Shown: one piece after another, positions 5,771 to 45,624 of the stretch | How positions within the stretch are numbered: the first letter of the stretch is position 1 | Layout of the letters: every line of letters begins with the position of its first letter | DNA from: Caldifarciminota bacterium | GTDB taxonomy: Bacteria; Hydrothermota; Tepidihabitantia; B3-TA06 | NCBI GenBank assembly: GCA_023128825.1 | Contig: JAGMDF010000037.1 | Coordinates: forward strand, 1 to 47,921 | Direction of reading: 5' to 3' | DNA length: 47,921 bases | The notes under the pieces: model-generated | What the model was told of the DNA's origin: nothing | Database searches by the model: none | The model's input: only the letters and a program-made list of their open reading frames with translations | Position numbers and translations under genes: made by a program

Positions 5771-5798
5771 GTATGGGCACGGCATGCCGTGCACCTAC
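5771..5798. repeat. Family A palindrome, decayed copy
   Basis: Starts like copy 2 (GTATGGGCACGGCA) but the right arm reads TGCCGTGCACCTAC, with two changes that break pairing at the ends. The inner 16 bp, GCACGGCATGCCGTGC, still pair perfectly. It ends 24 bp before the -35 box of the hydrogenase operon. Confidence 0.75.
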
Positions 5799-5821
5799 CA
5801 ATCAATTGGGGTTGACATAAC

Positions 5822-5849
5822 TTGACAAGCCCTGATTTCTGTGTATAGT
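5822..5849 (+). promoter_or_regulatory. Promoter of the hydrogenase operon (leaderless type)
   Basis: TTGACA at 5822-5827, a 16-bp spacer and TATAGT at 5844-5849. The ATG at 5858 is only 8 bases after the -10 box, so the transcript would begin at or within a base or two of the start codon. A second TTGACA at 5812-5817 is too far upstream for normal spacing. Confidence 0.8.
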
Positions 5850-5857: not shown

Positions 5858-6880
5858 ATGAGGTCTCTTTTTTTACCCATAGCCTCAATCCCTGAATTCT
5901 ATACCCAGTTGGCAAAATACGGCGAAACCTACTACCCACGCGTGCTTGAACGTCACGCCACCTACGAGGTCTGGCGCGATGAGAAGATTCCAGCAGAGGA
6001 ACTTTACCAAGCACTCAAGATGATTCGGCCTGTAGAACCTTTGAAGGAGTTTTTCTTAGGCTCACGCGAGCGGGTGGCAAGCTTCCCGCAGCTCTTTTCC
6101 AAGCAGATCAAGCCTAAGGTGATAGTTGGCGCGAAGGACTGCGACATCCGCTCGCTCATTGAGATTCAGGATAACGTCTACCTGAAGGGCGTGCTCGAGG
6201 ACCCGTTCTACAAGGAGCGCCGGGAGAAGTATCTCGTGGTCACCGTGGATTGTCCTGAACCTGCAGATACCTGCTTCTGCCTGCGGATCGACGGCAAACC
6301 CTACTCTACCTGGGGCGGAGACCTCAACCTATCCTTCGGCGAGGAGGGAATAGTGGTGGATGTGCTTTCCGCAAAGGGTGATGAGATTGTAGAGAAGATG
6401 GGGGATGTTCTCAAGGAGGCGGATAAAAAAGAGATCAAGAAACGCGACAAGCATCGTGCCGACGCTGAGCGCAAGCTTGCCAAGATCAACCCCGAGGAGT
6501 TTGTCCCTGACCTTCCCGATCGGATTGAGCATCAGCTTGATACCGGATTCTGGGCCAAGGCCATGGCCAACTGTGTTGACTGTCAGGCCTGCGAGCGGAT
6601 CTGTCCGACGTGCTACTGCTTCCTGCTTTATGACATTCCTGTTGGTAAGGGGATTGAACGTATCAAGGTGCTTGATTGGTGTTACCATGCCGCCTATGGC
6701 AGGGTGGGCGGTGGCGCGAATCCCCTTGCGCATTTTTCTCACCGGCTGCGTAACCGTTTCGAGTGCAAATTCATGGCGTTCCCTCGCAACTTCAAGGTTT
6801 ATGCCTGTACCGGCTGCGGGCGCTGCATTGCCGGCTGCACCGGGAAGATCGACATCAGAAAGGTCCTCAGGGCGCTATGA
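5858..6880 (+). CDS. hydB: Sulfhydrogenase beta subunit-like Fe-S protein (HydB/AsrA family)
   Basis: First gene of the hydrogenase operon, 340 residues. The family (HydB of cytoplasmic sulfhydrogenases, AsrA of anaerobic sulfite reductase) passes electrons between a flavin subunit and a catalytic partner. The C-terminal third carries two ferredoxin-like cysteine groups: CVDCQACERICPTC near residues 239-252 and CTGCGRCIAGC near 317-327. An upstream CPEPADTCFC may bind a further metal centre. Residues around 180-210 are rich in Lys and Glu and probably helical. The next gene starts in the ATGA overlap. The usual catalytic alpha and delta sulfhydrogenase subunits are absent; a membrane hydrogenase follows instead, so this protein is inferred to feed that complex. 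Confidence 0.85.
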   Translation: MRSLFLPIASIPEFYTQLAKYGETYYPRVLERHATYEVWRDEKIPAEELYQALKMIRPVEPLKEFFLGSRERVASFPQLFSKQIKPKVIVGAKDCDIRSLIEIQDNVYLKGVLEDPFYKERREKYLVVTVDCPEPADTCFCLRIDGKPYSTWGGDLNLSFGEEGIVVDVLSAKGDEIVEKMGDVLKEADKKEIKKRDKHRADAERKLAKINPEEFVPDLPDRIEHQLDTGFWAKAMANCVDCQACERICPTCYCFLLYDIPVGKGIERIKVLDWCYHAAYGRVGGGANPLAHFSHRLRNRFECKFMAFPRNFKVYACTGCGRCIAGCTGKIDIRKVLRAL

Positions 6881-7689
6881 ATCCTTACGAATCACGTCAG
6901 GCTAACATCAAGGAAGTTATCGTCGAGACCCCGACCATCCGGACGTTCGTATTGGAACCAAAGCCTCCTCTTTCGTTTCACGCAGGTCAGTTTATCGAGC
7001 TAACGGCCCCCGGGGTTGGAGAGGCACCATTTACACCCTCGTCCTCTCCTTACGTGGAGGAGAGTATGGAGGTTACGATAATGAAGGTCGGGCGTGTGAC
7101 CTCGAAGCTCTTTGACCTGCGCCCTGGCGACACCCTGGCTATCAGAGGTCCATATGGTGTGCCTTATGATATAGAACGCTACGAGGGCCGTCATGTACTG
7201 ATAGTGGGCGGCGGCGTCGGGCTTGCTCCGCTGAGATCGCTCTTCCTTGCGCTCCTTCACAACGTCTCCGCATACAAGAAGATTCATCTCTACTACGGGG
7301 CACGCACCTCCAAGGATGTGGTCTACGACCGTATGTTCAAGGAGTGGGGTAAGATCAAGAATGTGGAGATCCGCCGCAGCGTGGACGTGGGGGACAAGAA
7401 CTGGAAGGAGAAGGTGGGTGTTGTGACCGTGCTTTTGGACGGGCTTCCCTTCAAGCCCAAGGATGGCCTTGCCGTTGCCTGCGGACCGCCTGTCATGATG
7501 AAGTTTGTCACCAAAAGGCTCCTTGAGCTTGGGTTCGCGGATGAGGATATCTATCTCTCGATGGAAAAGAACATGTCGTGCGGGTTCGGCAAGTGCGGTC
7601 ACTGTCGGCTGGGAGAGCTCTTCTGCTGCAAGGACGGCCCTGTTATTACCTGGGATCGTATCAAGCATCTGGAGGATGCGTTCGTATGA
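6877..7689 (+). CDS. hydG: Sulfhydrogenase gamma subunit-like FAD/NAD(P) oxidoreductase (HydG/PyrK type)
   Basis: Ferredoxin-reductase-fold subunit, 270 residues. The first ~100 residues form a flavin-binding barrel (FHAGQFIEL; then RGPYGVPYD near 91-99). A nucleotide-binding domain follows with GGGVGLAPLRS near 110-120 and ACGPPVMM near 205-212. The C-terminus has the 2Fe-2S cysteine set CGFGKCGHC plus a further CC pair near 250, as in HydG and dihydroorotate dehydrogenase PyrK. This is the predicted NAD(P)H entry or exit point of the operon's complex. The start is the ATG in the ATGA overlap with the previous gene; a longer reading from 6763 would overlap hydB by more than 100 bp. It should pair with the HydB-like protein as a diaphorase module. 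Confidence 0.87.
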   Translation: MNPYESRQANIKEVIVETPTIRTFVLEPKPPLSFHAGQFIELTAPGVGEAPFTPSSSPYVEESMEVTIMKVGRVTSKLFDLRPGDTLAIRGPYGVPYDIERYEGRHVLIVGGGVGLAPLRSLFLALLHNVSAYKKIHLYYGARTSKDVVYDRMFKEWGKIKNVEIRRSVDVGDKNWKEKVGVVTVLLDGLPFKPKDGLAVACGPPVMMKFVTKRLLELGFADEDIYLSMEKNMSCGFGKCGHCRLGELFCCKDGPVITWDRIKHLEDAFV

Positions 7690-9287
7690 GCAAAATCCCT
7701 CGCACCGTATGTCCATTCTGCAACCTGGGCTGCGAGTTGGGGTTCGAGGTCAAGGGAAGGGATATCCGGGGAGTGGATTACGTTTCCGATTCACGCAACG
7801 AAGGCAGGCTTTGTGCTAAAGGAAACGCGGCTGCCGAGATAGCGAATCACCGCAAGCGACTCTATCATCCTGTTATAAAGGGTAAGCAGGCTTCGTTGGC
7901 CGAGGCGATAGGGTATCTTCGTCAAAGGCTTACTGATTTTAAGCCTGAAGAGGTGCTTGTAGTTTACGACGCCTCGCTTACCTTTGAGGAGATCGGTTTC
8001 CTCGCGGCATGGGCACGTGAAGCGGGCTACGAGAATCCAGCTTACGTAACGTTCGGTCCGGAGTCGGCGTTCCTTTACGGCAAGTTGCCGGTAACCTCTG
8101 TAGAGAAGATCACCACCGGTGAGTATGCCTTCATTGTGGGTGATGCCTTTGGTCAGGACTCGGTTATCTCTGGTTATATCGCCAAGGCAAAGGGTGACAA
8201 CCGTGAGTTTCGGTACATAGTGCTGGATTCGTTTGAGACCAATACCTCGCACTTTGCCCACAGGTTCGTGCAGGTAAGACCCGGTTACGAGGGGCTGTTT
8301 TTATATGGGCTCTACAAGCACGTTGCAAACCAGAAGGTTAATCTTGACTCTATTGCCGAGGTGTGTGGGGTTGAGGCCTCGAGTTTTGAGGCGGTTGCTA
8401 CGATGATCCGCAACAAGGATGGGATTCTTGTGAATGCGCCGGCGCGTGGGCGCAGCTTTGATCCATTCCTTACCCACGCAGCCTCTCTTAAACTTTCCCA
8501 GACGCTTGAGCAGATGAGGTATCTTCCTCTTGGGCACCGGGTGCCCGGTAGGGTTACGCGTTCCTTCTACTCCTATCTTCCCATGCTCATGGGAGGACGC
8601 ATCAAGGCGGTGGTGAGTTTTGGCGCTTACTTCCCGTGGAATCATCCCCAACTTAAGCCGGTTCTTCGTAAGGCCGAGTTCGTGGCCGCCGGGTCCCTTT
8701 TTATCCCGGACGGGCGGTTTGAGTTGGAGCTTGTTCTGCCGATGGCCGCGGAGATCGAAAAGCAGGGCAGTATCCTAACCCTTTTCGGTGAAGCAAAACT
8801 TACCGGTGAACTCCCCGCACTTTCCGGCAGCCTGCCCGCAGGAGAGTATATAAAGCGCCTGGGTGGTCCAATGAAGCCGGTAGAGTTCCGAGTTGGGAAT
8901 CATGAAGCGTTGGATGAGGCTGCGATTGATGAACGCGCCGAGGCGCTTTTATCTTACAAGGCAAAGCGAAGAAGGGGCAGGGACTATCTCCTTTTAGGGG
9001 CCCAGTCAGCGATCGGCTTCCTTTCCATCTTTGAAGAAGAGGATTGGGTCAAGCTTGGCCCCCAGGATGCATCATCGCTTGGGGTCAAGGATAAGGAAGA
9101 GGTCGGGATTGAAACCGAACAGGGTGAAGCAGGGTTAAGCACGAGGATTCAGCCCGGTATACCTTCCGGGGTTGCGGTCGTCAGCATGAACCATCAACCC
9201 TCTCTTGCGCTTTTTGAGCTGAGCACGGATTCGGCAACCGGCGAGGGCCTGCTTAAGCCTTCATGGAGCAGGATATGGAAAAAGTAA
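7686..9287 (+). CDS. NuoG/formate dehydrogenase alpha-like protein, short and probably non-catalytic
   Basis: 533-residue member of the molybdopterin oxidoreductase superfamily. An N-terminal 4Fe-4S domain is clear: Cys9, Cys12, Cys16 and Cys43 (CxxCx3C...C). The middle contains LPMAAEIEKQGSILTLFGE, typical of the NuoG and FdhA folds, and the end looks like the dinucleotide-binding beta domain. Catalytic formate dehydrogenases are usually 650 residues or more and carry a Cys or Sec Mo ligand; I see none in the region after the Fe-S domain, and no in-frame TGA. It is therefore more likely a NuoG-like electron conduit than an enzyme. It starts in an ATGA overlap with hydG and overlaps the next gene by 13 bp. 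Confidence 0.82.
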   Translation: MSKIPRTVCPFCNLGCELGFEVKGRDIRGVDYVSDSRNEGRLCAKGNAAAEIANHRKRLYHPVIKGKQASLAEAIGYLRQRLTDFKPEEVLVVYDASLTFEEIGFLAAWAREAGYENPAYVTFGPESAFLYGKLPVTSVEKITTGEYAFIVGDAFGQDSVISGYIAKAKGDNREFRYIVLDSFETNTSHFAHRFVQVRPGYEGLFLYGLYKHVANQKVNLDSIAEVCGVEASSFEAVATMIRNKDGILVNAPARGRSFDPFLTHAASLKLSQTLEQMRYLPLGHRVPGRVTRSFYSYLPMLMGGRIKAVVSFGAYFPWNHPQLKPVLRKAEFVAAGSLFIPDGRFELELVLPMAAEIEKQGSILTLFGEAKLTGELPALSGSLPAGEYIKRLGGPMKPVEFRVGNHEALDEAAIDERAEALLSYKAKRRRGRDYLLLGAQSAIGFLSIFEEEDWVKLGPQDASSLGVKDKEEVGIETEQGEAGLSTRIQPGIPSGVAVVSMNHQPSLALFELSTDSATGEGLLKPSWSRIWKK

Positions 9288-9742
9288 TAGTCCTTGATCT
9301 TGATCTATGCTGCGGTTGCGAGAGTTGCAGGGCGGCCTGTATGCAGTCCCACCACGGTGAGCCGCGTATCCGTCACGGGTATATAGCGGGAGAAGCCAGT
9401 CTTCCCTCTGCCTGCCGTCACTGCGAGGAGCCTTTGTGCGTAGCCTCCTGTCCTACGGACGCCCTTATAAAAGACGAAAAGACGGGCCTTGTCGTTCATC
9501 GTCCCTTCCTTTGCATCGGGTGCCAGTCCTGCACCTTTGCATGTCCTTTCGGGGTCATCCAGCAGCATCTTTTAAGGCACATCGCCATCAAGTGTGACTA
9601 CTGCCAGGAGCGGGAGGAAGGCCCCAGATGTGTGGCAAGTTGTTCTTCCTTCGCCCTTAAATATATAAGTGTTGACGAACTCCCCAAGGTGCCGGTAAAC
9701 GACCGCTTCATCTCCCGTTCACCATCATGGAGGCGCCAATGA
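9275..9742 (+). CDS. HydN/HycB-like ferredoxin with four 4Fe-4S clusters
   Basis: 155-residue electron-transfer protein of the HydN/HycB/CooF type. Four cysteine groups are visible: CCGCESCRAAC, CRHCEEPLCVASC, CIGCQSCTFAC and CDYCQ...CVASC, enough for four 4Fe-4S clusters. Proteins of this class link a dehydrogenase or diaphorase to a membrane hydrogenase, which fits its place between the NuoG-like gene and the hydrogenase core. The ATG at 9275 is preferred over the one at 9263 because GGAG lies six bases upstream of it and the N-terminus MEKVIVLDLDLCCGC is typical of the family. Its stop overlaps the next start (ATGA). Confidence 0.88.
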   Translation: MEKVIVLDLDLCCGCESCRAACMQSHHGEPRIRHGYIAGEASLPSACRHCEEPLCVASCPTDALIKDEKTGLVVHRPFLCIGCQSCTFACPFGVIQQHLLRHIAIKCDYCQEREEGPRCVASCSSFALKYISVDELPKVPVNDRFISRSPSWRRQ

Positions 9743-10686
9743 ATATGAGCGTCGGCTGGGTGTTCTTCTATCTCCTTGTCTTCCCAGGGTTCCTCTTTAC
9801 CAGCGTGGTTGGACTTCTCTATACCTGGGTTGACCGCAAGGTGACCGCCCGCATACAGTTCAGGGTCGGACCGCCTCTGCTTCAGCCGTTTTACGATTTC
9901 TTTAAGCTTTTAGGTAAAGATACCTTTGTGCCTGAGGGTGCGCCGCGTTCTATCTTCCTTGGCGCGCCGCTTATAGGACTTGCCTCGGTCAGCGTGCTGT
10001 CCACCGTGCTCCTTGTTTCCAATCTCTTTCCCGGGCAGGCATTTGCAGGTGATTTGATAGTCGTCCTCTACCTCTTTGCGTTCGTGCCGATTGTTCTGAT
10101 CCTTGGTGCTTCTTCCTCCTCCAACCCGATCTCCGCGCTTGGTGCATCGCGTGAGATGAGCCTTTATCTTGCATACGAGCTGCCGCTGCTCTTTGCTCTG
10201 GCCACGATCATAGTCAAGTCAGGCGGGCTTTTGAAGATAGGGGACCTGCTGCAGTGGCAATGGACCAATCACCCCTTCCTTTATTCAGCTTCAGGAGCCC
10301 TCGCCTTCGTCTCGGCGTTTCTATGCATGCAGGCCAAGCTGGGGTTTGTTCCATTTGATATAGCCGAGGCGGAACAGGAGATCATGGGCGGCATCACACT
10401 GGAGTATTCGGGTCCTGTGCTGGCTGTTTTAAAGCTCACCAAGGCGATGCTTTACTTTACGGTAAGCATTTTCCTTACCGTATTTTTCTGGGGCGGGTTC
10501 CGTTCCCCACGCGAGGGCTGGTACCACATCCTGGGTTGGCTTAAACCCCTGGCAATAATCGTTTTGATAATCCTTATCAAGAACACCAATCCCCGGCTGC
10601 GGATAGACCAGGCTCTGCGTTTCTTCTGGTCTATCGTTTTGGTTCTCTCGATCGCGGGATTCATACTGGCTACGGTGGGGTTGTGA
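9739..10686 (+). CDS. Membrane-anchor hydrogenase subunit, NuoH/HyfC/MbhM-like
   Basis: 315-residue membrane protein of the NuoH family, about eight transmembrane helices. It holds the soluble hydrogenase arm to the membrane and forms part of the ion path. Typical pieces: YTWVDRKVTARIQFRVGPP near residues 27-45, GASREMSLYLAYELP near 135-150 and PFDIAEAEQEIMGG near 204-217. GGAGG five bases before the ATG at 9739 and the ATGA overlap with the previous stop decide this start over the in-frame ATG at 9727. Confidence 0.93.
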   Translation: MNMSVGWVFFYLLVFPGFLFTSVVGLLYTWVDRKVTARIQFRVGPPLLQPFYDFFKLLGKDTFVPEGAPRSIFLGAPLIGLASVSVLSTVLLVSNLFPGQAFAGDLIVVLYLFAFVPIVLILGASSSSNPISALGASREMSLYLAYELPLLFALATIIVKSGGLLKIGDLLQWQWTNHPFLYSASGALAFVSAFLCMQAKLGFVPFDIAEAEQEIMGGITLEYSGPVLAVLKLTKAMLYFTVSIFLTVFFWGGFRSPREGWYHILGWLKPLAIIVLIILIKNTNPRLRIDQALRFFWSIVLVLSIAGFILATVGL

Positions 10687-11123
10687 TGCTTAAGAAATTG
10701 AAGAAAGCCGCACTTGCCCGTTCTTTGTGGATTTACCATGTTGCCGCAAGCCCGTGCAACAACTGCGACATCGAGATACTCGACCTCTTGACCCCTCGAT
10801 TCGACGTGGAGCGGTTCGGCCTGCTCCTTGCCGCTTCTCCGCGTCACGCAGACTTGCTTCTGGTTACCGGCATGGTCAATAAGAAGGTTCTCGACCGGGT
10901 ACTCAGGGTTTATGCCCAGATCCCTAAGCCCTGCGTGGTTGCTGCGGTCGGATCGTGCGCGATCTCCGGCGATCTGTTCGTGGACTCCTACAACTTTGCC
11001 GGTCCTTTGGATAAGCATATTCCGGTTGATGTCTACATAGGCGGCTGCCCGCCCAAACCCGAGGCGATGATACTCGGGGTGATGCGCGCTATCGAGAAAT
11101 TAAAGAAACTTAAGGACCTGTGA
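10686..11123 (+). CDS. [NiFe]-hydrogenase small subunit, NuoB/HyfI/MbhJ-like
   Basis: 145-residue small subunit carrying the Fe-S cluster next to the active site. The cysteines sit in ASPCNNCDIE near residues 18-27, VGSCAISGD near 88-96 and GGCPPKPE near 118-125, as in NuoB and group 4 hydrogenase small subunits. It would pass electrons between the NuoI-like protein and the Ni-Fe centre of the large subunit. It starts at ATG overlapping the previous stop by one base; a GTG three bases earlier is equally possible. Confidence 0.93.
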   Translation: MLKKLKKAALARSLWIYHVAASPCNNCDIEILDLLTPRFDVERFGLLLAASPRHADLLLVTGMVNKKVLDRVLRVYAQIPKPCVVAAVGSCAISGDLFVDSYNFAGPLDKHIPVDVYIGGCPPKPEAMILGVMRAIEKLKKLKDL

Positions 11124-11656
11124 TGGCTGATACGCTCAAGAGATCTCAGAATCTTGATAAGAACGGCGCTTATATCGGAGGCAAAGGCTTCTGTCATCAA
11201 AGGGACAGCGAGCCTGAGTTCAAGCATATAGAGGGGCAATGCCGCGAGTTCTATCCCGAAGGCGAGCTTAACCTTGTCCGTAAGCGCCGCTGGTACTGGG
11301 AGATAGTCGCCGAGGATCTCGTTAAGGTCGCCGATTTCTGCTTCAATACCCTGGGCTGCCGCTTCTCGACCGCCACAGGCGAAGATACCCCGAGGGGATT
11401 CACCATACTCTACCACTTCTCCATTGATCGTCTCGGTCTTTTAATAAACGTCAGGGTTATCCTGCCTCACGATGATCCAGAGGTTGACTCCCTCACCGTT
11501 CTTGGCCGCGGCTTCGAGTGGATTGAGCGCGAGATGCACGAGATGCTTGGAATAGGGTTCCGCGGTCTGGGTGATACCCGCCATCTCTTGCTTCCGGACG
11601 ACTCACCTGATGACTATCATCCCTACAGGAGGTCCTTTGGCTGCACTCGAACGTAA
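11123..11656 (+). CDS. Hydrogenase subunit, NuoC/MbhK-like
   Basis: 177-residue NuoC-type subunit that packs against the large subunit in complex I-like enzymes. The C-terminal half matches the family: DRLGLLINVRVILPHDDP, WIEREMHEMLGIGFRG near 138-153 and a final DDSPDDYHPYRR. The N-terminal ~35 residues look disordered. In Escherichia coli HycE/HyfG this domain is fused to the large subunit; here the two are separate and overlap by 20 bp, as in the archaeal membrane-bound hydrogenases. Confidence 0.9.
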   Translation: MADTLKRSQNLDKNGAYIGGKGFCHQRDSEPEFKHIEGQCREFYPEGELNLVRKRRWYWEIVAEDLVKVADFCFNTLGCRFSTATGEDTPRGFTILYHFSIDRLGLLINVRVILPHDDPEVDSLTVLGRGFEWIEREMHEMLGIGFRGLGDTRHLLLPDDSPDDYHPYRRSFGCTRT

Positions 11657-12830
11657 GGTAATCCCCATCGGGCCGTTCCACCCCTTGCAGGAGGAGGCCG
11701 AGTACTTCAAGCTGACGGTCGAGGGGGAGAAGGTAGTCGGGCTCGACATCCAGCTTGGCTACATGCACCGCGGCCACGAGAAGATATGCGAGGGCAAGAC
11801 CTACGACCAGATCCCCTTTGTTGTTGAGCGCATCTGCGGTATCTGTTCCACCTCGCACCCCTTCGCATGCGTGCAGGCGATCGAAGACGCGGCAGGTATC
11901 GAAATTCCACCCCGGGCCGCTTACATCCGTACCATTGTTGGCGAGCTTGAGCGTATCCATTCCCATCTTCTCTGGGTCGGACTTGCAGGGCACTTTTTGG
12001 GCTATAACACCGTCTGGATGTGGGCGTGGAAGTACCGTGAGTCTGTGCTGGAGATAAGTGAACTCATCACCGGAAACCGCAACCACTATGCCATGTTCAA
12101 GCCGGGCGGTGTTCGCCGCGACATCGAAGGCGGTATGATCCCCCCGCTCTTGCAGGTGCTTGACGACGCCGATAAGAAGATCCTGATGCTTACCAAGGCT
12201 GTTCTGGACGATCCGGTGCTTCACAAACGTCTTGAGGGCGTAGGGGTGCTTACTCCGGAGATGGCCGTTGAATACAGCGTTGTCGGACCCACTGCTCGCG
12301 CCTCAGGTCTGGCGATTGACGTTCGCAAGGACGATCCCCATGCGGCATACGATTGGATCGAGTGGGAAGAGATAGTTTTGCATGAAGGGGACGTGTTTGC
12401 CAAAGCCAAGGTTCGGTTGCTTGAATGCCTTGAATCCACCAAGATTATCCGTCAGTGTGTTCAGAAGCTGAAGGATTTGCCCGAAGGTGAGATAGATGCT
12501 CACATGGAGCGTGGCCCTGACGGCGAGGGTATCGGCCGGTACGAGGCGCCTCGCGGTGAGGTCTTTCACTACGTTAAGGGGGACGGTTCACTCTATCCTA
12601 GCCGCTACAAGATCCGCGCCCCGAGCTCTATGAACATCAAGTCCAACGAGGTGGCGGTCTTAGGCGGTTCGGTTGCCGATGCCGCCATCACCCTGGCCGC
12701 GGTTGACCCTTGCTACTGCTGTACCGAACGAATCGCGGCATTCAACACCAAAGGTAAACTTCTCTACACATGGGATGATCTTGTGAAGCTTTCTCAGGAG
12801 AAGACCGCACGCATGGGAGGCGGATCATGA
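11637..12830 (+). CDS. Group 4 [NiFe]-hydrogenase large (catalytic) subunit, NuoD/HyfG/MbhL-like
   Basis: 397-residue catalytic subunit. Both nickel-binding motifs are intact: RICGICSTSH (Cys67, Cys70) and DPCYCCTER (Cys359, Cys362). This makes it a true [NiFe] hydrogenase and not a complex I NuoD, which lacks these cysteines. About 32 residues follow the ER after the last CxxC, so a C-terminal processing step by a HycI-type endopeptidase is likely. The start is TTG at 11637: AGGAGGT at 11627-11633 lies just ahead and the N-terminus MAALERKVIPIGPFHP fits the family. A reading from ATG 11571 would overlap the NuoC-like gene by 86 bp. No hydrogenase maturation genes are in the window. Confidence 0.95.
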   Translation: MAALERKVIPIGPFHPLQEEAEYFKLTVEGEKVVGLDIQLGYMHRGHEKICEGKTYDQIPFVVERICGICSTSHPFACVQAIEDAAGIEIPPRAAYIRTIVGELERIHSHLLWVGLAGHFLGYNTVWMWAWKYRESVLEISELITGNRNHYAMFKPGGVRRDIEGGMIPPLLQVLDDADKKILMLTKAVLDDPVLHKRLEGVGVLTPEMAVEYSVVGPTARASGLAIDVRKDDPHAAYDWIEWEEIVLHEGDVFAKAKVRLLECLESTKIIRQCVQKLKDLPEGEIDAHMERGPDGEGIGRYEAPRGEVFHYVKGDGSLYPSRYKIRAPSSMNIKSNEVAVLGGSVADAAITLAAVDPCYCCTERIAAFNTKGKLLYTWDDLVKLSQEKTARMGGGS

Positions 12831-14257
12831 ACGTTGTGCTGCTTTTGCTTATCGCGGTTCCATTCATAGGTGGTCTATTGGTGATTTTCCCGGGACGGTT
12901 CCTGCGGATGCTGCGCTGGATATTCTCATTGCTGACCGTTCTTGGCACCGCTTTGCTTCTGACGATAAATTTTGTTGGAGGAACCAAGCCCGGCTTCAGT
13001 CTGTGGCATGTGATGGGTTCAGCAAACCTGCAGCAGTTCTCTGTCTCCCCGATAACCCTGGTTATTGGCGCGGCGTTCGTTTTACTCTGGCTCATAGTGA
13101 TTCTTTATTCCTTCGGTTACTTTCCTAAAGGTGGTGAAGCGGATACCGAGTACTACTCCCTTACCCTGTTTATGCTCGGCTCAACCCTGGGACTTTTATT
13201 TGCTAACGACCTTATCTTCCTGTATCTCTTCTGGGAGATAGCCGCGATAACCACCTGGCGTCTTGTAGGCTTCGAGCGTACCCAGAAGGTCATCTCCATC
13301 GCCACCAAAACCATTATTATCACCTTCTTCGGCTCCGCCCTCATGCTGGTTGGGTTTGCAATTCTGATTACGAACTTCGGTTCATTCAATCTCGGCGACA
13401 TGATAAGCAGCCAGATGCCGGTACTTGCAGGGGTCTTTATCCTTGCCGGTATATTCGCCAAGTCTGCGGTCATCCCACTCTATATCTGGTTGCCCGATGC
13501 TCACCCTGCCGCACCTTCACCCATGAGCGCACTGCTCTCCGGGGTTATTGTAAAAATCGGCCTTATTGTCTATCTCAAAATGTTCGTACAGACCTTTAGC
13601 GTCACCCCTGGCTGGAACATCGCTATCCTTGTGATGGTGATCGTTTCCAGTCTGGTTGCGGGTGGGATTGCTTTGATCGAAAAGGACTGCAAGCGAATCC
13701 TGGCATACTCCACGATCAGCCAGGTGGCTTTTATCTTCGGCGGATTAGTTGTGGTTACTCAGATTGCCGGTTCTGTTGGGGGGGTGCTTTATCTTGTCGC
13801 CCATTGTCTGGCAAAGGGAGCCCTGTTCCTCGGCTACGGGGTGGTGGTAAAGGAAACCGGTAAACGGAACATCAAAGAGGTGGGTCGTCTTGTTGCCAGA
13901 TTTCCCCTTCTCTTTGTTGGCGTCATGATAGCAACCCTCTCCATCATCGGACTGCCGCCGTTCCTGGGTTTCTTTGCCAAGATTGACGTGATATTCGGGG
14001 TTTTAGGGCTTGTGGATGTCGTTCCCCAGCCTACCTATAGAATCCTTTTGGGATTCGGGTTCATTCTTTCCTCGGTGCTGACGCTTCTTTATATGCTTCG
14101 TCTCTTCTCGTCGGTGTTCCTTACCGGAGAGAAACCCCAGGAGGGTCTTAAAGAGCCTATCTATCTTTCGGTGCTCGTGCTTTTGCTTTCGCTCAGCCTT
14201 ATTGGGGGAAGCGTAGCCCTCAAGCCGCTGGTGGCCTACCTGGCTGGAGGAGGATAA
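12827..14257 (+). CDS. Antiporter-like membrane subunit 1 (NuoM/N, MrpD-like)
   Basis: 476-residue polytopic protein of the proton-conducting antiporter family, about 14 transmembrane helices. The key charged residues are present: the Glu of LYLFWEIAAITTW near residues 125-138 (TM5), the Lys of FAKSAVIPLYIWLPDAHP near 210-228 and KIG in the following helix. It sits directly after the large subunit (ATGA overlap) and is extra to the complete Mrp set that follows, so it is inferred to be the hydrogenase's own pump subunit, like HyfB/HyfF or MbhH. Confidence 0.9.
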   Translation: MNVVLLLLIAVPFIGGLLVIFPGRFLRMLRWIFSLLTVLGTALLLTINFVGGTKPGFSLWHVMGSANLQQFSVSPITLVIGAAFVLLWLIVILYSFGYFPKGGEADTEYYSLTLFMLGSTLGLLFANDLIFLYLFWEIAAITTWRLVGFERTQKVISIATKTIIITFFGSALMLVGFAILITNFGSFNLGDMISSQMPVLAGVFILAGIFAKSAVIPLYIWLPDAHPAAPSPMSALLSGVIVKIGLIVYLKMFVQTFSVTPGWNIAILVMVIVSSLVAGGIALIEKDCKRILAYSTISQVAFIFGGLVVVTQIAGSVGGVLYLVAHCLAKGALFLGYGVVVKETGKRNIKEVGRLVARFPLLFVGVMIATLSIIGLPPFLGFFAKIDVIFGVLGLVDVVPQPTYRILLGFGFILSSVLTLLYMLRLFSSVFLTGEKPQEGLKEPIYLSVLVLLLSLSLIGGSVALKPLVAYLAGGG

Positions 14258-14258
14258 G

Positions 14259-16208
14259 ATGGTTAAGCTGCTTCAGCCGGCTGGGCTTATCATTCTTATT
14301 CCCTGGTTAGCTGCACTTCTTGCGATCGTCATCCGTCCCATACGCCGTTACCTGGCCGTGGCTGCTGCGTTGGCGACCGGTTACTTTGTGGTGCGGTTCT
14401 TTGTGGATGGAATCGGTCAAGTTCCACCGATCATCCTTCCCCAGGTTTGGGGGGTATCCAACTTTCTTCAGGTGGATTACCTTTCCGGGACGATCCTTTT
14501 GCTTGTTTCAGGGTTCGCGTTCCTTATCTTCCTCTACAGCTTTCGCTTCAAGGATGGGCCCCGGGATGACTGGAAATTCTTTACCTTCGGGCTCCTGACC
14601 TATGGTGCGGCGAATGGCGTGCTGTTGTCCAGTTCAGTGCTTCTGCTTTACTTCTTCTGGGGGATCCTGCTTTTTACGGTATACGGACTGCTGTTCTACG
14701 GCAGGGGAGACGTGGAGACGGCCGCACGCAAGATGTTCGTTCTCAACGGGGTTGCCGACTTCCTGTTGCTGTTCGGGTTACTTGTTTTTATCATCTACAC
14801 CAAACAGCAGGGAGTAGAGCCAGGACAACTTGCCTACTTCCCTGGTATGAGGCGTTTTGCTTTAAGCGACCCGTTGGCGATTGTTGCTTTTGTTTGCATC
14901 GCTGCCGCTGCTTTAACCAAGGCAGGCGCGTTCCCGATGCACACCTGGATTCCCAAAGCGGCTGAGTCGGCGCCCGCTGAAACGATGGCGTTCATCCCGG
15001 CAAGTCTGGATAAACTTCTGGGAATATACCTCTTCGTTCGGCTTTGCTACTCCATCTTTGAGATTCGTTCCAACCTTACGGTGCAGCTCATCTTCCTTAC
15101 GATAGGGGCGGTTACCGTTCTTGCCGCGGTGTTCATGGCGCTGGTTCAAAAAGACGCCATGCGTCTTCTTTCCTACCACGCGGTGAGCCAGGTAGGTTAC
15201 ATGATCTTGGGAATAGCCTCGGGTACGGTGCTTGGGATCGCCGGCGGTCTGTTCCACATGATGAATCATGCCATCTACAAGAGCACCCTGTTTCTTACCG
15301 GTGGAGCGGTGAAGCGCCAGACCGGGGAGAGCGATCTTGAGAAGCTGGGCGGGCTTGCCAGGGCCATGCCAGTAACCTTCTTCTCCTTCCTTATTGCGGC
15401 CCTGGCGATCTCAGGTGTCCCGCCGCTCAATGGTTTCGTGTCCAAGTGGCTTATCTACCAGTCGTTCGTGGAGCTGGGGCGAACCCAGCCTTTCTTCCTT
15501 ATTTTCCTGATCGCGGGTGCATTCGGCAGCGTTCTGACCCTTGCCTCTTTCCTCAAGCTCACTCACTCTATGTTCCTGGGCAGACGTCCCAAGGCGTTGG
15601 AAGGGGTGCACGAAGTCGGCTTCACAAAGTGGTTCCCGCCCCTCCTGATGGCTTTGACCTGCATAGCATTCGGTCTCTTTGCCTTCCGCCTGCCCCTGCG
15701 GTATCTCATCTCTCCCGCGCTTTCAGCATCGGTTATAGTTCCTTTAGGGCACTTTTCACCGCTTGCTTTTGCAGCAATCATGCTTATCATTGTGTCTCTT
15801 GGTTTCCTTATCTATATTGTCGGCGGTACCTATAGGCCTCGTCCGCGTAAGGTTTTCTTGGGCGCTGAGGAGTTGACCGAGGAGGAGATGCACTTCTCCG
15901 GTCCGCACTTTTACTCATCGATTAAGAATATCAAGATCTTTTTCGAGTTTTACCGCTTCGCAGAAGGAGGTTCGTTCGACGTTTTTCGTTATATACAAGG
16001 TCTGAGTAACACGCTTGGCAGGACACTGAAGAAATTGATAGACGACTCCCTTAACGCATTTGCGCGTTTTATAAGATACTTTCTTGATCTTGTAGGCAAA
16101 GGGTTTAGTCTCCTGCATACCGGAGGGTTGCCGTTTTACCTGGGCTGGATATTATTGGGGATCTTGATTTTGATCCTGTTATTAATTCGAGGAGGCGGCG
16201 GTGCTTGA
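14259..16208 (+). CDS. Antiporter-like membrane subunit 2 (NuoL/MrpA N-terminal type)
   Basis: 649-residue membrane protein of the NuoL/MrpA family: about 14 helices, a hydrophilic loop near 525-560 and a last helix near 625-645. The Lys in ALTKAGAFPMHTWIPKA near 215-230 and the histidines in FHMMNHAIYKS are kept. The position that is Glu in TM5 of most relatives (FWE) reads FWG near residue 134, with no Glu nearby. Together with the next gene it covers the domains of a split MrpA. It starts two bases after the previous stop and overlaps the next gene by 8 bp. Confidence 0.88.
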   Translation: MVKLLQPAGLIILIPWLAALLAIVIRPIRRYLAVAAALATGYFVVRFFVDGIGQVPPIILPQVWGVSNFLQVDYLSGTILLLVSGFAFLIFLYSFRFKDGPRDDWKFFTFGLLTYGAANGVLLSSSVLLLYFFWGILLFTVYGLLFYGRGDVETAARKMFVLNGVADFLLLFGLLVFIIYTKQQGVEPGQLAYFPGMRRFALSDPLAIVAFVCIAAAALTKAGAFPMHTWIPKAAESAPAETMAFIPASLDKLLGIYLFVRLCYSIFEIRSNLTVQLIFLTIGAVTVLAAVFMALVQKDAMRLLSYHAVSQVGYMILGIASGTVLGIAGGLFHMMNHAIYKSTLFLTGGAVKRQTGESDLEKLGGLARAMPVTFFSFLIAALAISGVPPLNGFVSKWLIYQSFVELGRTQPFFLIFLIAGAFGSVLTLASFLKLTHSMFLGRRPKALEGVHEVGFTKWFPPLLMALTCIAFGLFAFRLPLRYLISPALSASVIVPLGHFSPLAFAAIMLIIVSLGFLIYIVGGTYRPRPRKVFLGAEELTEEEMHFSGPHFYSSIKNIKIFFEFYRFAEGGSFDVFRYIQGLSNTLGRTLKKLIDDSLNAFARFIRYFLDLVGKGFSLLHTGGLPFYLGWILLGILILILLLIRGGGGA

Positions 16209-16734
16209 GCTTATCGTTTTGTTGATCTTTATGATAGCGGCCGGGATTGTGGCCGTCGAGATCAAGGACCTCTTGGCCTCGGTGATAGCGTTAGGTGCGG
16301 TGGGGTTCGCCGTAGCCATTGGATTCATAATGCTTGCGGCGCCCGATCTGGCCATAGTTCAGATCGTGATCGAGGTTCTCTCGGTGGTATTCTTTGTAGC
16401 GGTGATCCTTAAGACGACCCATGTTGATTCTACACTCGGACGGCCCTATAAAGGAGGAGATATCTTCACCTTCGTGGTGTTCGGGATGTTTGCGCTTGCC
16501 TTTGTCTACTTCGGTGTGAGGCTGCTTGCAGGTCTTGCCCCTATGAGTCGGGAGCTCGGTCAGGTTGCGAGTCACTATCTAACGCAGGGTCTGGCAGAGA
16601 CCGGTGCAGTGAACCGCGTAACGTCGGTGGTGCTCGACTACCGGGCGTTGGATACCTTAGGCGAGGCAACGGTTCTGTTTACCGCGGTGATTGGAGTCCT
16701 TGCGGTTCTCAGGCTTGAAGGGAGGAAGAAATGA
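16201..16734 (+). CDS. MrpA C-terminal part, MbhD+MbhE-like membrane protein
   Basis: 177-residue membrane protein with about five helices. The N-terminal half (MIAAGIVAVEIKDLLASVIALGA near residues 10-32; PDLAIVQIVIEVLSVVFF near 48-66) matches the MbhD/DUF4040 segment of MrpA. The C-terminal half, ending DTLGEATVLFTAVIGVLAVLRL, matches the MbhE-like segment. In bacterial Mrp systems these are the tail of MrpA; here they are a separate gene after the NuoL-like subunit. The start is a GTG overlapping the previous gene by 8 bp. Confidence 0.85.
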   Translation: MLELIVLLIFMIAAGIVAVEIKDLLASVIALGAVGFAVAIGFIMLAAPDLAIVQIVIEVLSVVFFVAVILKTTHVDSTLGRPYKGGDIFTFVVFGMFALAFVYFGVRLLAGLAPMSRELGQVASHYLTQGLAETGAVNRVTSVVLDYRALDTLGEATVLFTAVIGVLAVLRLEGRKK

Positions 16735-17168
16735 AAGGGATGACGCCGATTGTAAAGGTGGTAGCCCGCATCGTTGGAGGATTCATCTTCATTTACGGCT
16801 GCTACATCGTGCTCTACGGGCATCTCTCACCCGGCGGCGGGTTTGCAGGCGGGGCGATTATAGCCGCGGGCCTTATACTTGCTCGACTGGCGTTCGGGAC
16901 AACCGCCAGCCAGGAGAGGAGCGCCTCGATCTCCTCCTCCATCTTCGAAAGCACCGGCGGGCTTCTTTTCCTTCTCATTGCTCTGCTTGGACTCTTTGTC
17001 GGCGGGTACTTCTTTATAAATCTCTTTCCTTCCTTCGGTACACCGGGAAGGCTTGTCTCTGCCGGTTCCATTCCCTTCTCCAACATTGCGATCGGCATCA
17101 AGGTTGCGGCGGCTATACTTTCCATCTTCGTCGTGCTGGCGTCAACCAAATACATATTCAAGGAGTGA
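16731..17168 (+). CDS. mnhB: Mrp/Mnh antiporter subunit B (MbhF-like)
   Basis: 145-residue MnhB-family membrane protein, four helices. GHLSPGGGFAGGAIIAAGLIL near residues 27-47 is the family hallmark. It overlaps the previous gene by four bases (ATGA) and continues the standard Mrp gene order A-B-C-D-E-F-G. Confidence 0.93.
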   Translation: MKGMTPIVKVVARIVGGFIFIYGCYIVLYGHLSPGGGFAGGAIIAAGLILARLAFGTTASQERSASISSSIFESTGGLLFLLIALLGLFVGGYFFINLFPSFGTPGRLVSAGSIPFSNIAIGIKVAAAILSIFVVLASTKYIFKE

Positions 17169-17172
17169 TGCG

Positions 17173-17511
17173 GTGATTATTCTGGTTGCTTCGTTGATTC
17201 TGTTCCTTGTTGGGCTTTATGCCATAATCACCAAGCGCAACATGATTAAGGTAGCGGTGGGGTTTTCGCTTATGGAGTACTCGGTGAACTTTCTGTTCGC
17301 TATTGTGGGATTTCGTCCGGGTGCCTTGCCGCCCATACTCCAGGCGGTTGAGGCAGGTAAGGTTTACTCCGACCCCTTGCCCCAGGCACTGGTGCTTACC
17401 GCTATAGTGATCGGTCTTGGCGTCACCGCTTTCATGCTGTCGTTGATATTACGTCTCTACAACCGCATCGGTTCCTTTGATCTCGAAGAGATCCAGAGGC
17501 TGAAAGGGTAG
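17173..17511 (+). CDS. mnhC: Mrp/Mnh antiporter subunit C (NuoK/MbhG-like)
   Basis: 112-residue protein with three helices. It has the family features KRNMIKVAVGFSLMEYSVN near residues 19-37, with the Glu buried in TM2, and DPLPQALVLTAIVIGLGVTA near 67-86. It is the NuoK-like subunit. The start is GTG at 17173, four bases after the previous stop; a longer reading from 17053 would overlap mnhB by more than 100 bp and is not conserved in character. Confidence 0.92.
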   Translation: MIILVASLILFLVGLYAIITKRNMIKVAVGFSLMEYSVNFLFAIVGFRPGALPPILQAVEAGKVYSDPLPQALVLTAIVIGLGVTAFMLSLILRLYNRIGSFDLEEIQRLKG

Positions 17512-17517
17512 CTGGCT

Positions 17518-19026
17518 ATGGAGATATTCCCGGTTCTTTTGATTGCAATCCCCCTGGGCGGGGCCTTCCTTATTCCTATCCTCTACAAGGCGTGGAATCG
17601 TTTGGCAGAGATCGTGGCCGGGCTTTGCCTGGCGGCTGTTTTGGCTTTGAGTATCTATCTCGCCTTCTTTCTTGTGCCCGGCAAGCCACTGGTCTATCTC
17701 TTCGGCAACTGGCCGGTTCCTTTGGGGATCGCGTTCGCGGTTGATAGGCTCTCCTCGTTTATGCTGCTGGTTGTTGCTATCCTGGTGTTCTTCTCCTACA
17801 TTTTTGCTATCCGATACATGGATCACTTCACCGGTTCGGGCAAGTTCTATACCCTGTATCTTCTGATGCTCGTGGGTATGAACGGGGTGGTGATGACCGG
17901 CGATCTGTTTAACATGTTTGTGTTTATGGAGATCGCTGGTCTCTCCTCCTATGCCCTGGTTGCATTCGGCACTGAGGCTGAGGAGTTAGAGGCTGGCTTC
18001 AAGTACATGGTGATGGGCGAGATCGCCAGCATGATGATTCTTTTGGCGATCGCATTCATCTACGCCGCTACCTCAACCCTTAATCTTGCGGACATCTCCC
18101 GCTCGTTTGCCGCCATGGATAAGACCCCTGGCTTCTGGTTTGTGTTCATCCTCTTGATGTCCGGCTTTTCGATCAAGGCGGCGATTGTTCCCTTCCACTC
18201 CTGGTTGCCTGACGCGCACCCCTCGGCTCCTGCTCCGATCTCCGCGTTGCTTTCAGGCGTGTTTATCAAGGTGCTGGGTGTTTATGCCATGGCACGGATT
18301 CTTTTCAACGTATACGGCGTCTCACGAGCCAGCTACCCCGCGGTCTTTAACGCCCTTCTAATACTCGGGCTCGCCTCGATTATTATTGCGAGCCTGCTTG
18401 CCCTCTATCAGAAAGACTACAAGCGGCTTCTGGCCTACTCGAGCATCAGTCAGATCGGCTACATCGTGCTTGCGTTGGGTATAGGCAACGAGTTCGCCCT
18501 TATCGGTGCGCTTGCGCATATCCTGAGCCACTCGCTCGGCAAGGGGCTTCTGTTTCTCACCTCAGGTTCTGTGGTCTACCGTGTTGGAGAACGCGACATA
18601 ACCAAGTTTACCGGTGGGCTGGGCAAACAGATGCCCTGGACTTCGCTTTCCTATAACCTGGGTGCTCTTTCTGTTGCCGGCATGCCTCCTTTCCTGGGCT
18701 TCTTCTCCAAGCTGTTTATTATCCTGGGCGCGGTAAAAGCGGGATTCATCGTCCCTGCCGTCGTGGCCGGACTCTTTGCTGTGGTTACCCTGGGCTATCT
18801 TCTAAAGATCACCAACAAGGTCTTCTGGGGCAAGGAAGGTATAAAAGGGATAAAGGAATCCCCATTCGTTATGGTCTTTGCCATGGTTTCTCTTGTTGTT
18901 CTTTTGGTAGCAGGCGGCGCGTTTTTCTTCTGGCTCAAACCCCACCTTTTGCAGCCTGCGGCCGATGTTCTGCTCAAGGGGACCGAGTATGCTGAAATTG
19001 TGTTCAGGATAGGAGCAGGGGGTTAG
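17518..19026 (+). CDS. mnhD: Mrp/Mnh antiporter subunit D (MbhH-like)
   Basis: 502-residue antiporter subunit, about 14 helices. TM5 Glu is present in FNMFVFMEIAGLSSYALVAF near residues 131-150. The TM7 Lys is in GFSIKAAIVPFHSWLPDAHP near 217-236 and a further Lys in SGVFIKVLG. It also has YKRLLAYSSISQIGYI near 300-315. All residues expected for proton transfer are in place, unlike the NuoL-like subunit upstream. Expected to move H+ in exchange for Na+ as part of the Mrp module. Confidence 0.93.
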   Translation: MEIFPVLLIAIPLGGAFLIPILYKAWNRLAEIVAGLCLAAVLALSIYLAFFLVPGKPLVYLFGNWPVPLGIAFAVDRLSSFMLLVVAILVFFSYIFAIRYMDHFTGSGKFYTLYLLMLVGMNGVVMTGDLFNMFVFMEIAGLSSYALVAFGTEAEELEAGFKYMVMGEIASMMILLAIAFIYAATSTLNLADISRSFAAMDKTPGFWFVFILLMSGFSIKAAIVPFHSWLPDAHPSAPAPISALLSGVFIKVLGVYAMARILFNVYGVSRASYPAVFNALLILGLASIIIASLLALYQKDYKRLLAYSSISQIGYIVLALGIGNEFALIGALAHILSHSLGKGLLFLTSGSVVYRVGERDITKFTGGLGKQMPWTSLSYNLGALSVAGMPPFLGFFSKLFIILGAVKAGFIVPAVVAGLFAVVTLGYLLKITNKVFWGKEGIKGIKESPFVMVFAMVSLVVLLVAGGAFFFWLKPHLLQPAADVLLKGTEYAEIVFRIGAGG

Positions 19027-19027
19027 G

Positions 19028-19522
19028 ATGCGGCGAGTGGTTTTATTTGTCCTAAGTTACGGATTGTGGCTGCTCTTGACCTTGCCAGGAGGCGATTGGC
19101 CGGTCTATGTTGTTGGAGCGGTGTTGGCGCTTCTTGTGGCTATCTTCTTCGGTGCAGAGTTTACCCATCGGCCCCTTTCATTCCTCAACCCTCGTCGCTG
19201 GTTCTGGGGCATCATTTACATCCCGGTTTTCTTCTGGCACATGCTGGTGGCAAATCTTGACGTTGCGTTCCGCGTGCTTCATCCTGCCTGTCCTGTAAAA
19301 CCCGGAATAGTCAAGGTGAAAACCGTGCTCAAGACAGACGTTGCCAAGACGTTTCTTGCCAACTCCATCACCCTTACCCCTGGAACCATGACCGTTGACG
19401 TGGATGAAGATGTTCTTTACGTTCATTGGATCGACGTACTGGGCGATGGGGAGGATGTCAAAGCCAACACAAAGGCAATAGTGGCGAAGTTCGAGAAGTA
19501 CTTGAGGAGGATCTTCGAATGA
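19028..19522 (+). CDS. mnhE: Mrp/Mnh antiporter subunit E (MbhA-like)
   Basis: 164-residue MnhE-family protein. Two or three N-terminal helices are followed by a cytoplasmic domain with the family hallmarks NPRRWFWGIIYIPVFFWHML, KTFLANSITLTPGTMTVDV near residues 113-131 and VHWIDV. It starts one base after mnhD ends and overlaps mnhF in an ATGA. Confidence 0.93.
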   Translation: MRRVVLFVLSYGLWLLLTLPGGDWPVYVVGAVLALLVAIFFGAEFTHRPLSFLNPRRWFWGIIYIPVFFWHMLVANLDVAFRVLHPACPVKPGIVKVKTVLKTDVAKTFLANSITLTPGTMTVDVDEDVLYVHWIDVLGDGEDVKANTKAIVAKFEKYLRRIFE

Positions 19523-19785
19523 GCGTTCTCTGGATTAGCATTCTCATTATCCTTGGGGTTGCGGCTTTTCTGTGCCTTTTCCGCATCTTCCGCGGGCCCA
19601 CGATTGCCGACCGCATGGTTGGGGTTGACATCATGGGCATACTGTTCGTCGGAATAACGGCGATTACCGGAATACTCTACAATCTCTCATTCCTGGTGGA
19701 TATCGCGATTGCCCTTGTCTTGATTAGTTTTGTCGGGACGCTTGCCCTGGCCAAGTACCTTGAGCGGAGGACGCTTGATGACTGA
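19519..19785 (+). CDS. mnhF: Mrp/Mnh antiporter subunit F (MbhB-like)
   Basis: 88-residue protein with three helices. FRIFRGPTIADRMVGVDIMG near residues 21-40 and ALVLISFVGTLALAKYLERR near the end are the MnhF signature. The start is the ATG in the ATGA overlap with mnhE; the longer open frame upstream lies inside mnhE. Confidence 0.93.
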   Translation: MSVLWISILIILGVAAFLCLFRIFRGPTIADRMVGVDIMGILFVGITAITGILYNLSFLVDIAIALVLISFVGTLALAKYLERRTLDD

Positions 19786-20188
19786 GGTAACTGTGATTGA
19801 TGTAATCGGATACATCGTGATCTTTGTGGGTGTGGTTTTTGACCTTCTTGGTGCTATTGGTCTTGTCCGGTTCCCCGATGTCTACAACCGTCTGCAGTCG
19901 GCAACAAAGAGCGTTACCCTGGGCACTTTCGGGATCATGATCGGGATCCTGATAGTTACAGGCTTTACCCCTTTGGGGATCAAGGCGCTCATCTGCGGAG
20001 TTTTTTTGCTGTTGACCGCGCCCGTTTCCGCGCACGCCCTTTCCCGAGGCTCGTTGCGCTTTGGAGCAAAGATGTGGAAGGGAACCGTGATTGACGCCTA
20101 CGGCAAGGACAAACTGGGAGGGCCGCAGATCGAAAGCGAGGAAGGCGAAGCCAAAGAGAGTAAGGAGAAGGAAGATGAAGTGGCCTAA
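19778..20188 (+). CDS. mnhG: Mrp/Mnh antiporter subunit G (MbhC-like)
   Basis: 136-residue protein with three helices. GAIGLVRFPDVYNRLQSATK near residues 25-44, then SVTLGTFGIMIG, and LLLTAPVSAHALSRGSLRFG near 76-95 are typical of MnhG. The last ~25 residues are a highly charged Glu/Lys tail. It overlaps mnhF by 8 bp and the following Fe-S gene by 14 bp. Confidence 0.92.
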   Translation: MTEVTVIDVIGYIVIFVGVVFDLLGAIGLVRFPDVYNRLQSATKSVTLGTFGIMIGILIVTGFTPLGIKALICGVFLLLTAPVSAHALSRGSLRFGAKMWKGTVIDAYGKDKLGGPQIESEEGEAKESKEKEDEVA

Positions 20189-20780
20189 GATTCGCGAGCT
20201 GGGTGAGGCGCTGCGATCGCTCTTCTCCGCTCCTTACACCACTAAATTTCCCAAAAGGGCAATCCTGCCTCCGCCTCGGTTCCGCGGCGTTATCGTTTTC
20301 GATGAAGAGAAATGCATCGGTTGCGGGGCATGCGTTGAGGTTTGTCCTGCCAGGGCGCGTGAGCTGGAGGATGATCTTGAGAAAGGCATCCGGCACGTGG
20401 TCTATCTAAAGGATATGTGCATCTTCTGCGGTCAGTGCGTTACATATTGCCCGACAGAGGCCATTCGCCACACCGTTGATTACGACATGACCTTTCTTGA
20501 CAAGGATCAATACCGGGATGAGATCGAGAAGGAGCTTTTGTTCTGCGAGCGCTGCGGCAGGGTGATAACCACCCGTGAGCATCTGGAGTGGATCGCCCGA
20601 CGCCTGGGAGAGCTTGCCTATGCCAACCCCACCCTGGTTCTTACGCGTCAGAGCAGTCTGGATACGGTTGAGATGAAGCCTGAGCGAGGGGATTTTGAAC
20701 CTTACCGCAGCGATCACCAGCGGCTTTTGTGCCCGGCTTGCCGGCGTGAGGTGATCCTCAACGAGATCTGGGGCTACTAA
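20175..20780 (+). CDS. NuoI/HyfH/MbhN-like 2x[4Fe-4S] ferredoxin with a C-terminal CxxC pair
   Basis: 201-residue last gene of the operon. Two ferredoxin motifs near residues 45-95, CIGCGACVEVC and CIFCGQCVTYC, match the NuoI/HyfH subunit that brings electrons to the NuoB-like small subunit. The C-terminal ~80 residues add CERC near 132-135 and CPAC near 188-191, which could form a zinc-ribbon-like knuckle and are found in some hydrogenase-type NuoI homologues. It overlaps mnhG by 14 bp. In the archaeal Mbh operons the equivalent gene is likewise last. Confidence 0.9.
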   Translation: MKWPKIRELGEALRSLFSAPYTTKFPKRAILPPPRFRGVIVFDEEKCIGCGACVEVCPARARELEDDLEKGIRHVVYLKDMCIFCGQCVTYCPTEAIRHTVDYDMTFLDKDQYRDEIEKELLFCERCGRVITTREHLEWIARRLGELAYANPTLVLTRQSSLDTVEMKPERGDFEPYRSDHQRLLCPACRREVILNEIWGY

Positions 20781-32974: not shown

Positions 32975-32979
32975 GTAGT

Positions 32980-45613: not shown

Positions 45614-45624
45614 AGGAGGAGAAA

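Follow-up and report, generated by a model that had tools for sequence, protein, structure and literature searches.

Which electron donor feeds the membrane-bound [NiFe] hydrogenase operon of a Caldifarciminota bacterium (GenBank assembly GCA_023128825.1, contig JAGMDF010000037.1), and what reaction does the encoded machine catalyse? The operon occupies positions 5858-20780 of the 47,921-nt stretch analysed here (the window). Its host is an uncultured bacterium of candidate phylum WOR-3 (Stahlbacteria) and has a draft genome of 2.05 Mb; the closest named relatives are Candidatus Stahlbacteria (phylum WOR-3), with 94% identity in the hydrogenase large subunit, G8. We propose that the operon probably encodes a reversible, ion-coupled NAD(P)H:H+ oxidoreductase, in which a membrane-bound group 4 [NiFe] hydrogenase would be built on a scaffold resembling formate hydrogenlyase (FHL).

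Eighteen genes, all on the + strand, were delimited from six-frame open reading frames with corrected starts, and their 17 junctions range from -20 to +6 nt. Gene identities were assigned through Pfam, NCBIfam and PDB searches; SHI below denotes group 3b sulfhydrogenase.

5858 to 6880, + strand: G1, AsrA/HydB-like multi-[4Fe-4S] subunit (SHI beta subunit 9nez_B, E 5.6e-29)
6877 to 7689, + strand: G2, AsrB/HydG-like FAD and [2Fe-2S] NAD(P)H-binding subunit (SHI gamma subunit 9nez_C, E 1e-51)
7686 to 9287, + strand: G3, degenerate FdhF/NuoG-like molybdopterin-fold protein with an N-terminal [4Fe-4S] motif (family matches, AlphaFold model, Foldseek)
9275 to 9742, + strand: G4, HycB/CooF/HydN-like polyferredoxin with four [4Fe-4S] motifs (family matches)
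9739 to 10686, + strand: G5, NuoH/MbhM-like membrane anchor (PF00146, E 2e-62)
10686 to 11123, + strand: G6, NuoB/MbhJ-like small subunit with four cluster-ligand Cys (PF01058)
11123 to 11656, + strand: G7, NuoC/MbhK-like (PF00329)
11637 to 12830, + strand: G8, group 4 [NiFe] large subunit (MbhL 6cfw_L, E 5e-80)
12827 to 14257, + strand: G9, extra antiporter-like subunit, HyfD/MrpD-like (PF00361)
14259 to 16208, + strand: G10, MrpA-N/NuoL-like subunit (family matches)
16201 to 16734, + strand: G11, MrpA-C, MbhD + MbhE (PF13244, PF20501)
16731 to 17168, + strand: G12, MrpB (PF04039)
17173 to 17511, + strand: G13, MrpC (PF00420)
17518 to 19026, + strand: G14, MrpD (PF00361)
19028 to 19522, + strand: G15, MrpE (PF01899)
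19519 to 19785, + strand: G16, MrpF (PF04066)
19778 to 20188, + strand: G17, MrpG (PF03334)
20175 to 20780, + strand: G18, NuoI/HycF-like, two [4Fe-4S] motifs and a C-terminal CxxC...CxxC quartet (best NCBIfam model PRK12387, FHL Fe-S subunit)

The original prediction, made from the letters alone, had described an unbroken run of 18 genes, a complete group 4 [NiFe] core with both Ni-binding motifs, an extra antiporter subunit beside a full Mrp set, and an MrpA split in two. All of this was borne out: the motifs RICGIC and DPCYCC are intact, Pfam identified G9 and G10-G17, and the two MrpA pieces correspond to the N-terminal part (14259-16208) and to MbhD+MbhE (16201-16734). Two of its names had to be adjusted. 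The homology of its HydB/HydG-like diaphorase held, but the pair is better called AsrA/HydB-like and AsrB/HydG-like, as both proteins score below the equivalog cut-offs; its NuoG-like Fe-S protein was correctly placed by family, but is recast here as an FdhF-type protein that has degenerated and belongs to a peripheral arm like that of FHL. The identical 18-gene order was found in WOR-3 relatives with only 64-69% large-subunit identity, so the arrangement is not due to chance.

By sequence, the electron-entry part of the operon resembles an NAD(P)H-using enzyme, not a ferredoxin site. G2 combines the FAD/NAD(P) fold with the [2Fe-2S] Cys of an NAD(P)H diaphorase. Its best-scoring model was AsrB (TIGR02911, 209 bits, cut-off 289), and G1 scored 144 bits against the ShyB model (cut-off 690); the two fall short of the cut-offs of both known equivalog sets. 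Across homologues, the ligands of the FAD subunit and of the [2Fe-2S] and [4Fe-4S] clusters are nearly invariant: 14 of the 16 Cys of G1 never vary and one more is kept in 70 of 71 sequences, while the [2Fe-2S] Cys of G2 are present in 73 of 73.

A gene-neighbourhood search for HydB-HydG beside NuoD-type hydrogenases, proposed earlier as a check, showed that AsrA and AsrB immediately precede the hydrogenase genes in 55 of the 58 clade loci with enough upstream sequence. At locus L067 the pair lies about 4 kb farther upstream, and in the genome of L034 (genome G136) the contig of the cluster also carries both genes, at a distance of about 7 kb; genome G147 (locus L076) and genome G137 each encode a 62% identical AsrB elsewhere, AsrA not having been searched for there. 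The AsrB proteins linked to group 4 hydrogenases form one clade (support 97) apart from group 3b HydG, and the linked AsrA proteins form one clade (96) apart from group 3b HydB. The host genome also encodes a group 3b hydrogenase elsewhere (L134, contig C98, 270-4373), in an operon with HydBGDA order and its own HydB/HydG, and this copy falls on the 3b side of both trees. Given these two separate clades and the host's own 3b HydBG, we rejected AsrAB as part of a soluble 3b enzyme. At two other loci (L128, 548-3527; L050, 42-2932) group 3b hydrogenase genes adjoin the group 4 cluster, and L069 and L074 carry a second AsrA, which was placed in a separate clade.

We then consider the peripheral arm. 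G3 matched both the formate dehydrogenase (FDH) and NuoG families, and its AlphaFold (AF2) model (pLDDT, the predicted local distance difference test score, 86) was closer in Foldseek to FdhF of FHL (7z0t_A, TM-score 0.78) than to NuoG (4hea_3, TM-score 0.66). In an alignment of the window's G3 with 28 collected sequences, the FDH catalytic RLCH (Cys-His) block was deleted in every G3 covering it, whereas genuine FdhA proteins encoded beside the cluster at L064, L069 and L074 retain the block. G3 is also more than 100 residues shorter than FdhF-type FDH. To judge from its sequence, the 'molybdopterin oxidoreductase' is probably catalytically dead, a point that is new here. It was detected in 20 of 58 loci, mostly of WOR-3, and is missing from many; in many other loci, AsrB directly abuts G4. 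The C-terminal Cys quartet of G18 is conserved among homologues, and in E. coli HycF this quartet sits in an extension contacting HycB (PMC9474812). Because the peripheral arm is of the FHL kind (HycB-like G4 and HycF-like G18 with its quartet) and carries a degenerate FdhF-type G3, the closest architectural parallel is an FHL combined with Mrp and given a different input module, rather than a fusion of sulfhydrogenase and Mbh. Besides the genuine FdhA, the regions upstream of the cluster in L064, L069 and L074 carry MobA-like and FdhD-like genes and Rex.

The catalytic core is that of a group 4 hydrogenase, probably of group 4g, the latter assignment being drawn from papers on Omnitrophota; Pfam identified the full NuoB/C/D/H/I-type set. 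The Ni ligands of G8 (C67, C70, C359 and C362, in RxCGxC and DPCxxC) are invariant, a C-terminal tail follows DPCYCCTER, and in 26 of 51 loci the gene right after NuoI encodes a HycI protease; the host has a HycI as well. These features point to a NiFe enzyme that undergoes maturation, and not to a relative of complex I or Ehr. The cluster-ligand Cys of G6 are conserved in 93-94 of 96 sequences.

The membrane part holds three antiporter-like subunits (G9, G10 and G14). G9, which most WOR-3 loci and a small number of others have, keeps its key Glu/Lys in 25 of 25 sequences, the Lys of transmembrane helix (TM) 8 excepted. In G14, the TM5 Glu and the TM7/8/12 Lys are conserved; in G10, the TM7, TM8 and TM12 Lys are retained and Gly takes the place of the TM5 Glu, a replacement shared by 67 of 86 homologues. 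The Mrp-like Na+ module (G11-G17) is present with conserved cation-path residues in MrpF and MrpA-C (the Asp of G16 in 54 of 54 sequences, Glu58 of G11 in 70 of 73), and 43 of 49 clade loci have at least six of the eight Mrp genes downstream.

To place the operon, we analyzed the spread and phylogeny of the large subunit. Apart from the host's own copy, G8 matches were found in 73 of 147 genomes of the phylum (57-94% identity, E <= 1e-150), and fragments in two further genomes. A scan of species-representative genomes returned at least 551 relatives among at least 590 candidate stretches. The best 80 of these 551 or more are titled Omnitrophota, Elusimicrobiota, Margulisbacteria, Latescibacterota, Aerophobetes, NPL-UPA2, Fibrobacterota, Planctomycetota and Nitrospirota, among others, although some phylum titles may belong to mislabelled bins; the large-subunit clade was sampled from about a dozen nominal phyla. 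The AsrAB-linked large subunits formed one clade of 38 rows in the tree (support 100), next to a joint branch (81) of Pyrococcus furiosus MbhL and a WOR-3 paralogue. No AsrAB was present in the fetched loci of this paralogue. At L034, L035 and L076, NuoD/C/I occur without NuoH or Mrp adjacent. A soluble, membrane-free variant is not supported, since a NuoH of the right kind is encoded elsewhere in genomes G136 (L034), G147 (L076) and G137, which indicates a split operon; the stretches around the distant NuoH yielded no Mrp genes, and no wider search was made.

Together, these observations suggest the following scheme. NAD(P)H would be oxidised at the FAD of G2, and electrons would pass through its [2Fe-2S] cluster to G1, then to the remaining cluster of G3 and/or directly to the HycB-like G4. 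G4 would hand them on to the HycF-like G18, and the proximal cluster of G6 would deliver them to the Ni-Fe site of G8, where H2 would be formed from H+. G5 would couple this flow to the antiporter-like subunits and the Mrp module, moving H+ and Na+, and G3 would persist as a dead FdhF relic serving as scaffold or wire. A reversible machine is expected because the standard potentials of NAD(P)H and H2 are close, leaving a driving force near zero or negative. At low H2, or when ion influx pays for it, H2 would be made from NAD(P)H; at high H2, NAD(P)H would be made from H2 and energy stored. We infer the assembly of the complex, its NAD(P)H substrate, the ion, the stoichiometry and the direction from these features. 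Rex is a repressor sensing NADH/NAD+. Of 60 loci, 8 have a Rex gene (PF06971 + PF02629) as the immediate upstream neighbour of AsrA; these come from bins assigned to Omnitrophota, Clostridia and Margulisbacteria. This position beside AsrA hints at NADH, and we lean towards NAD over NADP as the substrate.

Ferredoxin is the main competitor for the role of donor. Both donors could be used, with reduced ferredoxin delivering electrons to the clusters of the HycB-like subunit or of AsrA and NAD(P)H reacting at AsrB, which would make the complex a confurcating or bifurcating enzyme or an ion-coupled three-way exchanger of ferredoxin, NAD(P)H and H2. The polyferredoxin G4 and multi-cluster G1 offer docking sites, the host encodes Rnf (RnfC was found), and group 4d/4g relatives are described or assumed to be ferredoxin-coupled (PMC5037454). 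However, the operon has a single flavin subunit, of the HydG/AsrB kind (G2), and no second one of the NfnB, NuoF or HdrA kind, and we consider the use of both donors unlikely. Ferredoxin might instead be the only donor, to an Mbh-type hydrogenase with which AsrAB, serving a separate soluble enzyme, is merely co-encoded. The Mbh-like core fits such an enzyme, and PMC5037454 and PMC8542988 assume it for group 4g; we nevertheless find it improbable, as AsrAB is linked in 55 of 58 loci, retained in the checked exceptions and separate as a clade from the HydBG on C98.

Two further substrates were weighed. With its FdhF-fold G3, HycB-like G4 and HycF-like G18, the operon could be read as an FHL joined to Mrp (group 4a/4b-like) with G3 as the formate dehydrogenase, and in some Clostridia-bin loci genuine FdhA and FdhD-like and MobA-like genes adjoin the cluster. 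The Cys-His block missing from every G3 covering it largely refutes this, and the short length of G3 and the many loci lacking it also count against it; we rejected FHL on the loss of the active-site block and judge it very unlikely. SHI-type enzymes reduce polysulfide. That activity, together with the best score of G2 being with AsrB, might suggest a sulfite or polysulfide reductase-type complex in which electrons from AsrAB would go to a sulfur substrate, as they do in anaerobic sulfite reductase. None of the 18 genes encodes AsrC or another subunit for sulfite reduction, however, and the NiFe site is intact, so this is extremely unlikely. The NAD(P)H-driven, ion-coupled hydrogenase remains our preferred explanation, although several points weigh against it. 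AsrAB-type modules could link NAD(P)H and ferredoxin-like centres, so that ferredoxin is still a possible substrate. The trees come from quick searches, with SH-aLRT (Shimodaira-Hasegawa-like approximate likelihood ratio test) values as their sole support and long outgroup branches. Rex adjoins the cluster in a minority of loci, and was looked for and not found in the host genome. Finally, a pumping role of G10 is unsure, as most members lack the TM5 Glu.

Next, we compared the operon with known systems. Mbh of P. furiosus (group 4d, 6CFW) shares the core subunits and an Mrp-like module and gave the best PDB match to the large subunit. It differs in having ferredoxin as donor, neither AsrAB nor an FdhF-like subunit, and a single antiporter subunit without MrpA-N (PMC7419157), as opposed to the three antiporter-like subunits and G1-G2 module seen here. 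FHL-1 of E. coli (group 4a, 7Z0S/7Z0T) shares the HycB-like subunit, the HycF-like subunit with its Cys quartet and an FdhF-fold subunit, whereas the operon's G3 lacks the active site and AsrAB and Mrp are added. Group 3b SHI (9NEZ) has homologous beta and gamma subunits but is soluble, with a group 3 large subunit and HydB/HydG in a separate clade; G8 is of the Complex1_49kDa/MbhL type. Complex I likewise joins an NADH-linked input module to a hydrogenase-type membrane core and includes NuoG, a degenerate subunit with the FdhA fold, but the operon has AsrAB as input, an intact Ni site and no sign of quinone use, and no PF01512 protein (the NuoEF FMN input) was found by Pfam among its 18 genes.

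The original prediction could name no characterised complex of this composition, yet the composition had already been reported. Among the open-licence literature, PMC6349859 was the only paper found to describe an AsrAB/HydBG-group 4-Mrp complex: it reports, for Saganbacteria RX5A (Supplementary Fig. 3e), a group 4 NiFe hydrogenase, Mrp, a molybdopterin protein, cooF, asrA and asrB, termed enigmatic and 'similar to Mbh', with nearest relatives in Zixibacteria and Omnitrophica. The composition is the same, including a molybdopterin protein not identifiable as FDH, a likeness drawn from the description rather than from sequence. The paper covers one genome, guesses an Mbh-like function and states neither an NAD(P)H role nor the loss of the FDH active site. 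HydDB group 4g, the probable class of G8, is Mrp-linked and occurs in the same candidate phyla, but is listed as uncharacterised and putatively ferredoxin-coupled (PMC5037454), and papers on Omnitrophota take such enzymes to work like Mbh or to serve in redox balancing (PMC8542988, PMC10066038); AsrAB is unmentioned in the available parts of all three. The accessible text of a WOR-3 survey (PMC12542636) treats Mvh/Hdr, Rnf and sulfhydrogenase but not this complex, and its 'sulfhydrogenase hydABDG' counts in metagenome-assembled genomes may include HydB/HydG of the membrane complex. New here is that the AsrAB module is a clade-wide trait. This linkage, the conserved cofactor ligands and the adjacent Rex genes support the earlier proposal that NAD(P)H and H+/H2 are coupled to ion movement, as a predicted activity.

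Published reconstructions give several candidate phyla ferredoxin-driven group 4 hydrogenases, for example Omnitrophota (PMC8542988). Should NAD(P)H be the donor, the picture changes of how these phyla balance redox, how much energy they gain and how far they depend on H2-consuming partners, since H2 evolution driven by NADH is possible only when H2 is low or when an ion gradient pays for it. The complex would then join complex I as a second case of an NAD(P)H module on a membrane hydrogenase with an FDH-type subunit lacking its active site, and extant forms with G3, without G3 and beside genuine FdhA allow comparison. We give an even chance to the idea that this lineage converged independently on the complex I plan, with AsrAB in place of NuoEF, a dead FdhF paralogue as NuoG, and NAD(P)H exchanged with H2 against an ion gradient, replacing ferredoxin as the presumed donor of the 4g clade.

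One further feature lies immediately upstream of the operon.

5822 to 5849, + strand: sigma-70-like promoter, TTGACA-16 nt-TATAGT, a near-consensus match by sequence only, ending 8 nt 5' of the first ATG

This position predicts a leaderless or nearly leaderless transcript. The 745-nt gap 5' of the operon also contains three copies (5153-5180, 5462-5490 and about 5776-5800) of a TA-flanked palindromic element, approximately GGGCACGGCATGCCGTGCCC, resembling repetitive extragenic palindromic (REP) sequences. Elsewhere in the window, a TIR-domain protein (PF13676, with a weak ThsB_TIR match) is encoded at 31964-32998 on the - strand, and two neighbouring TldD/PmbA-family proteins at 43883-47301.

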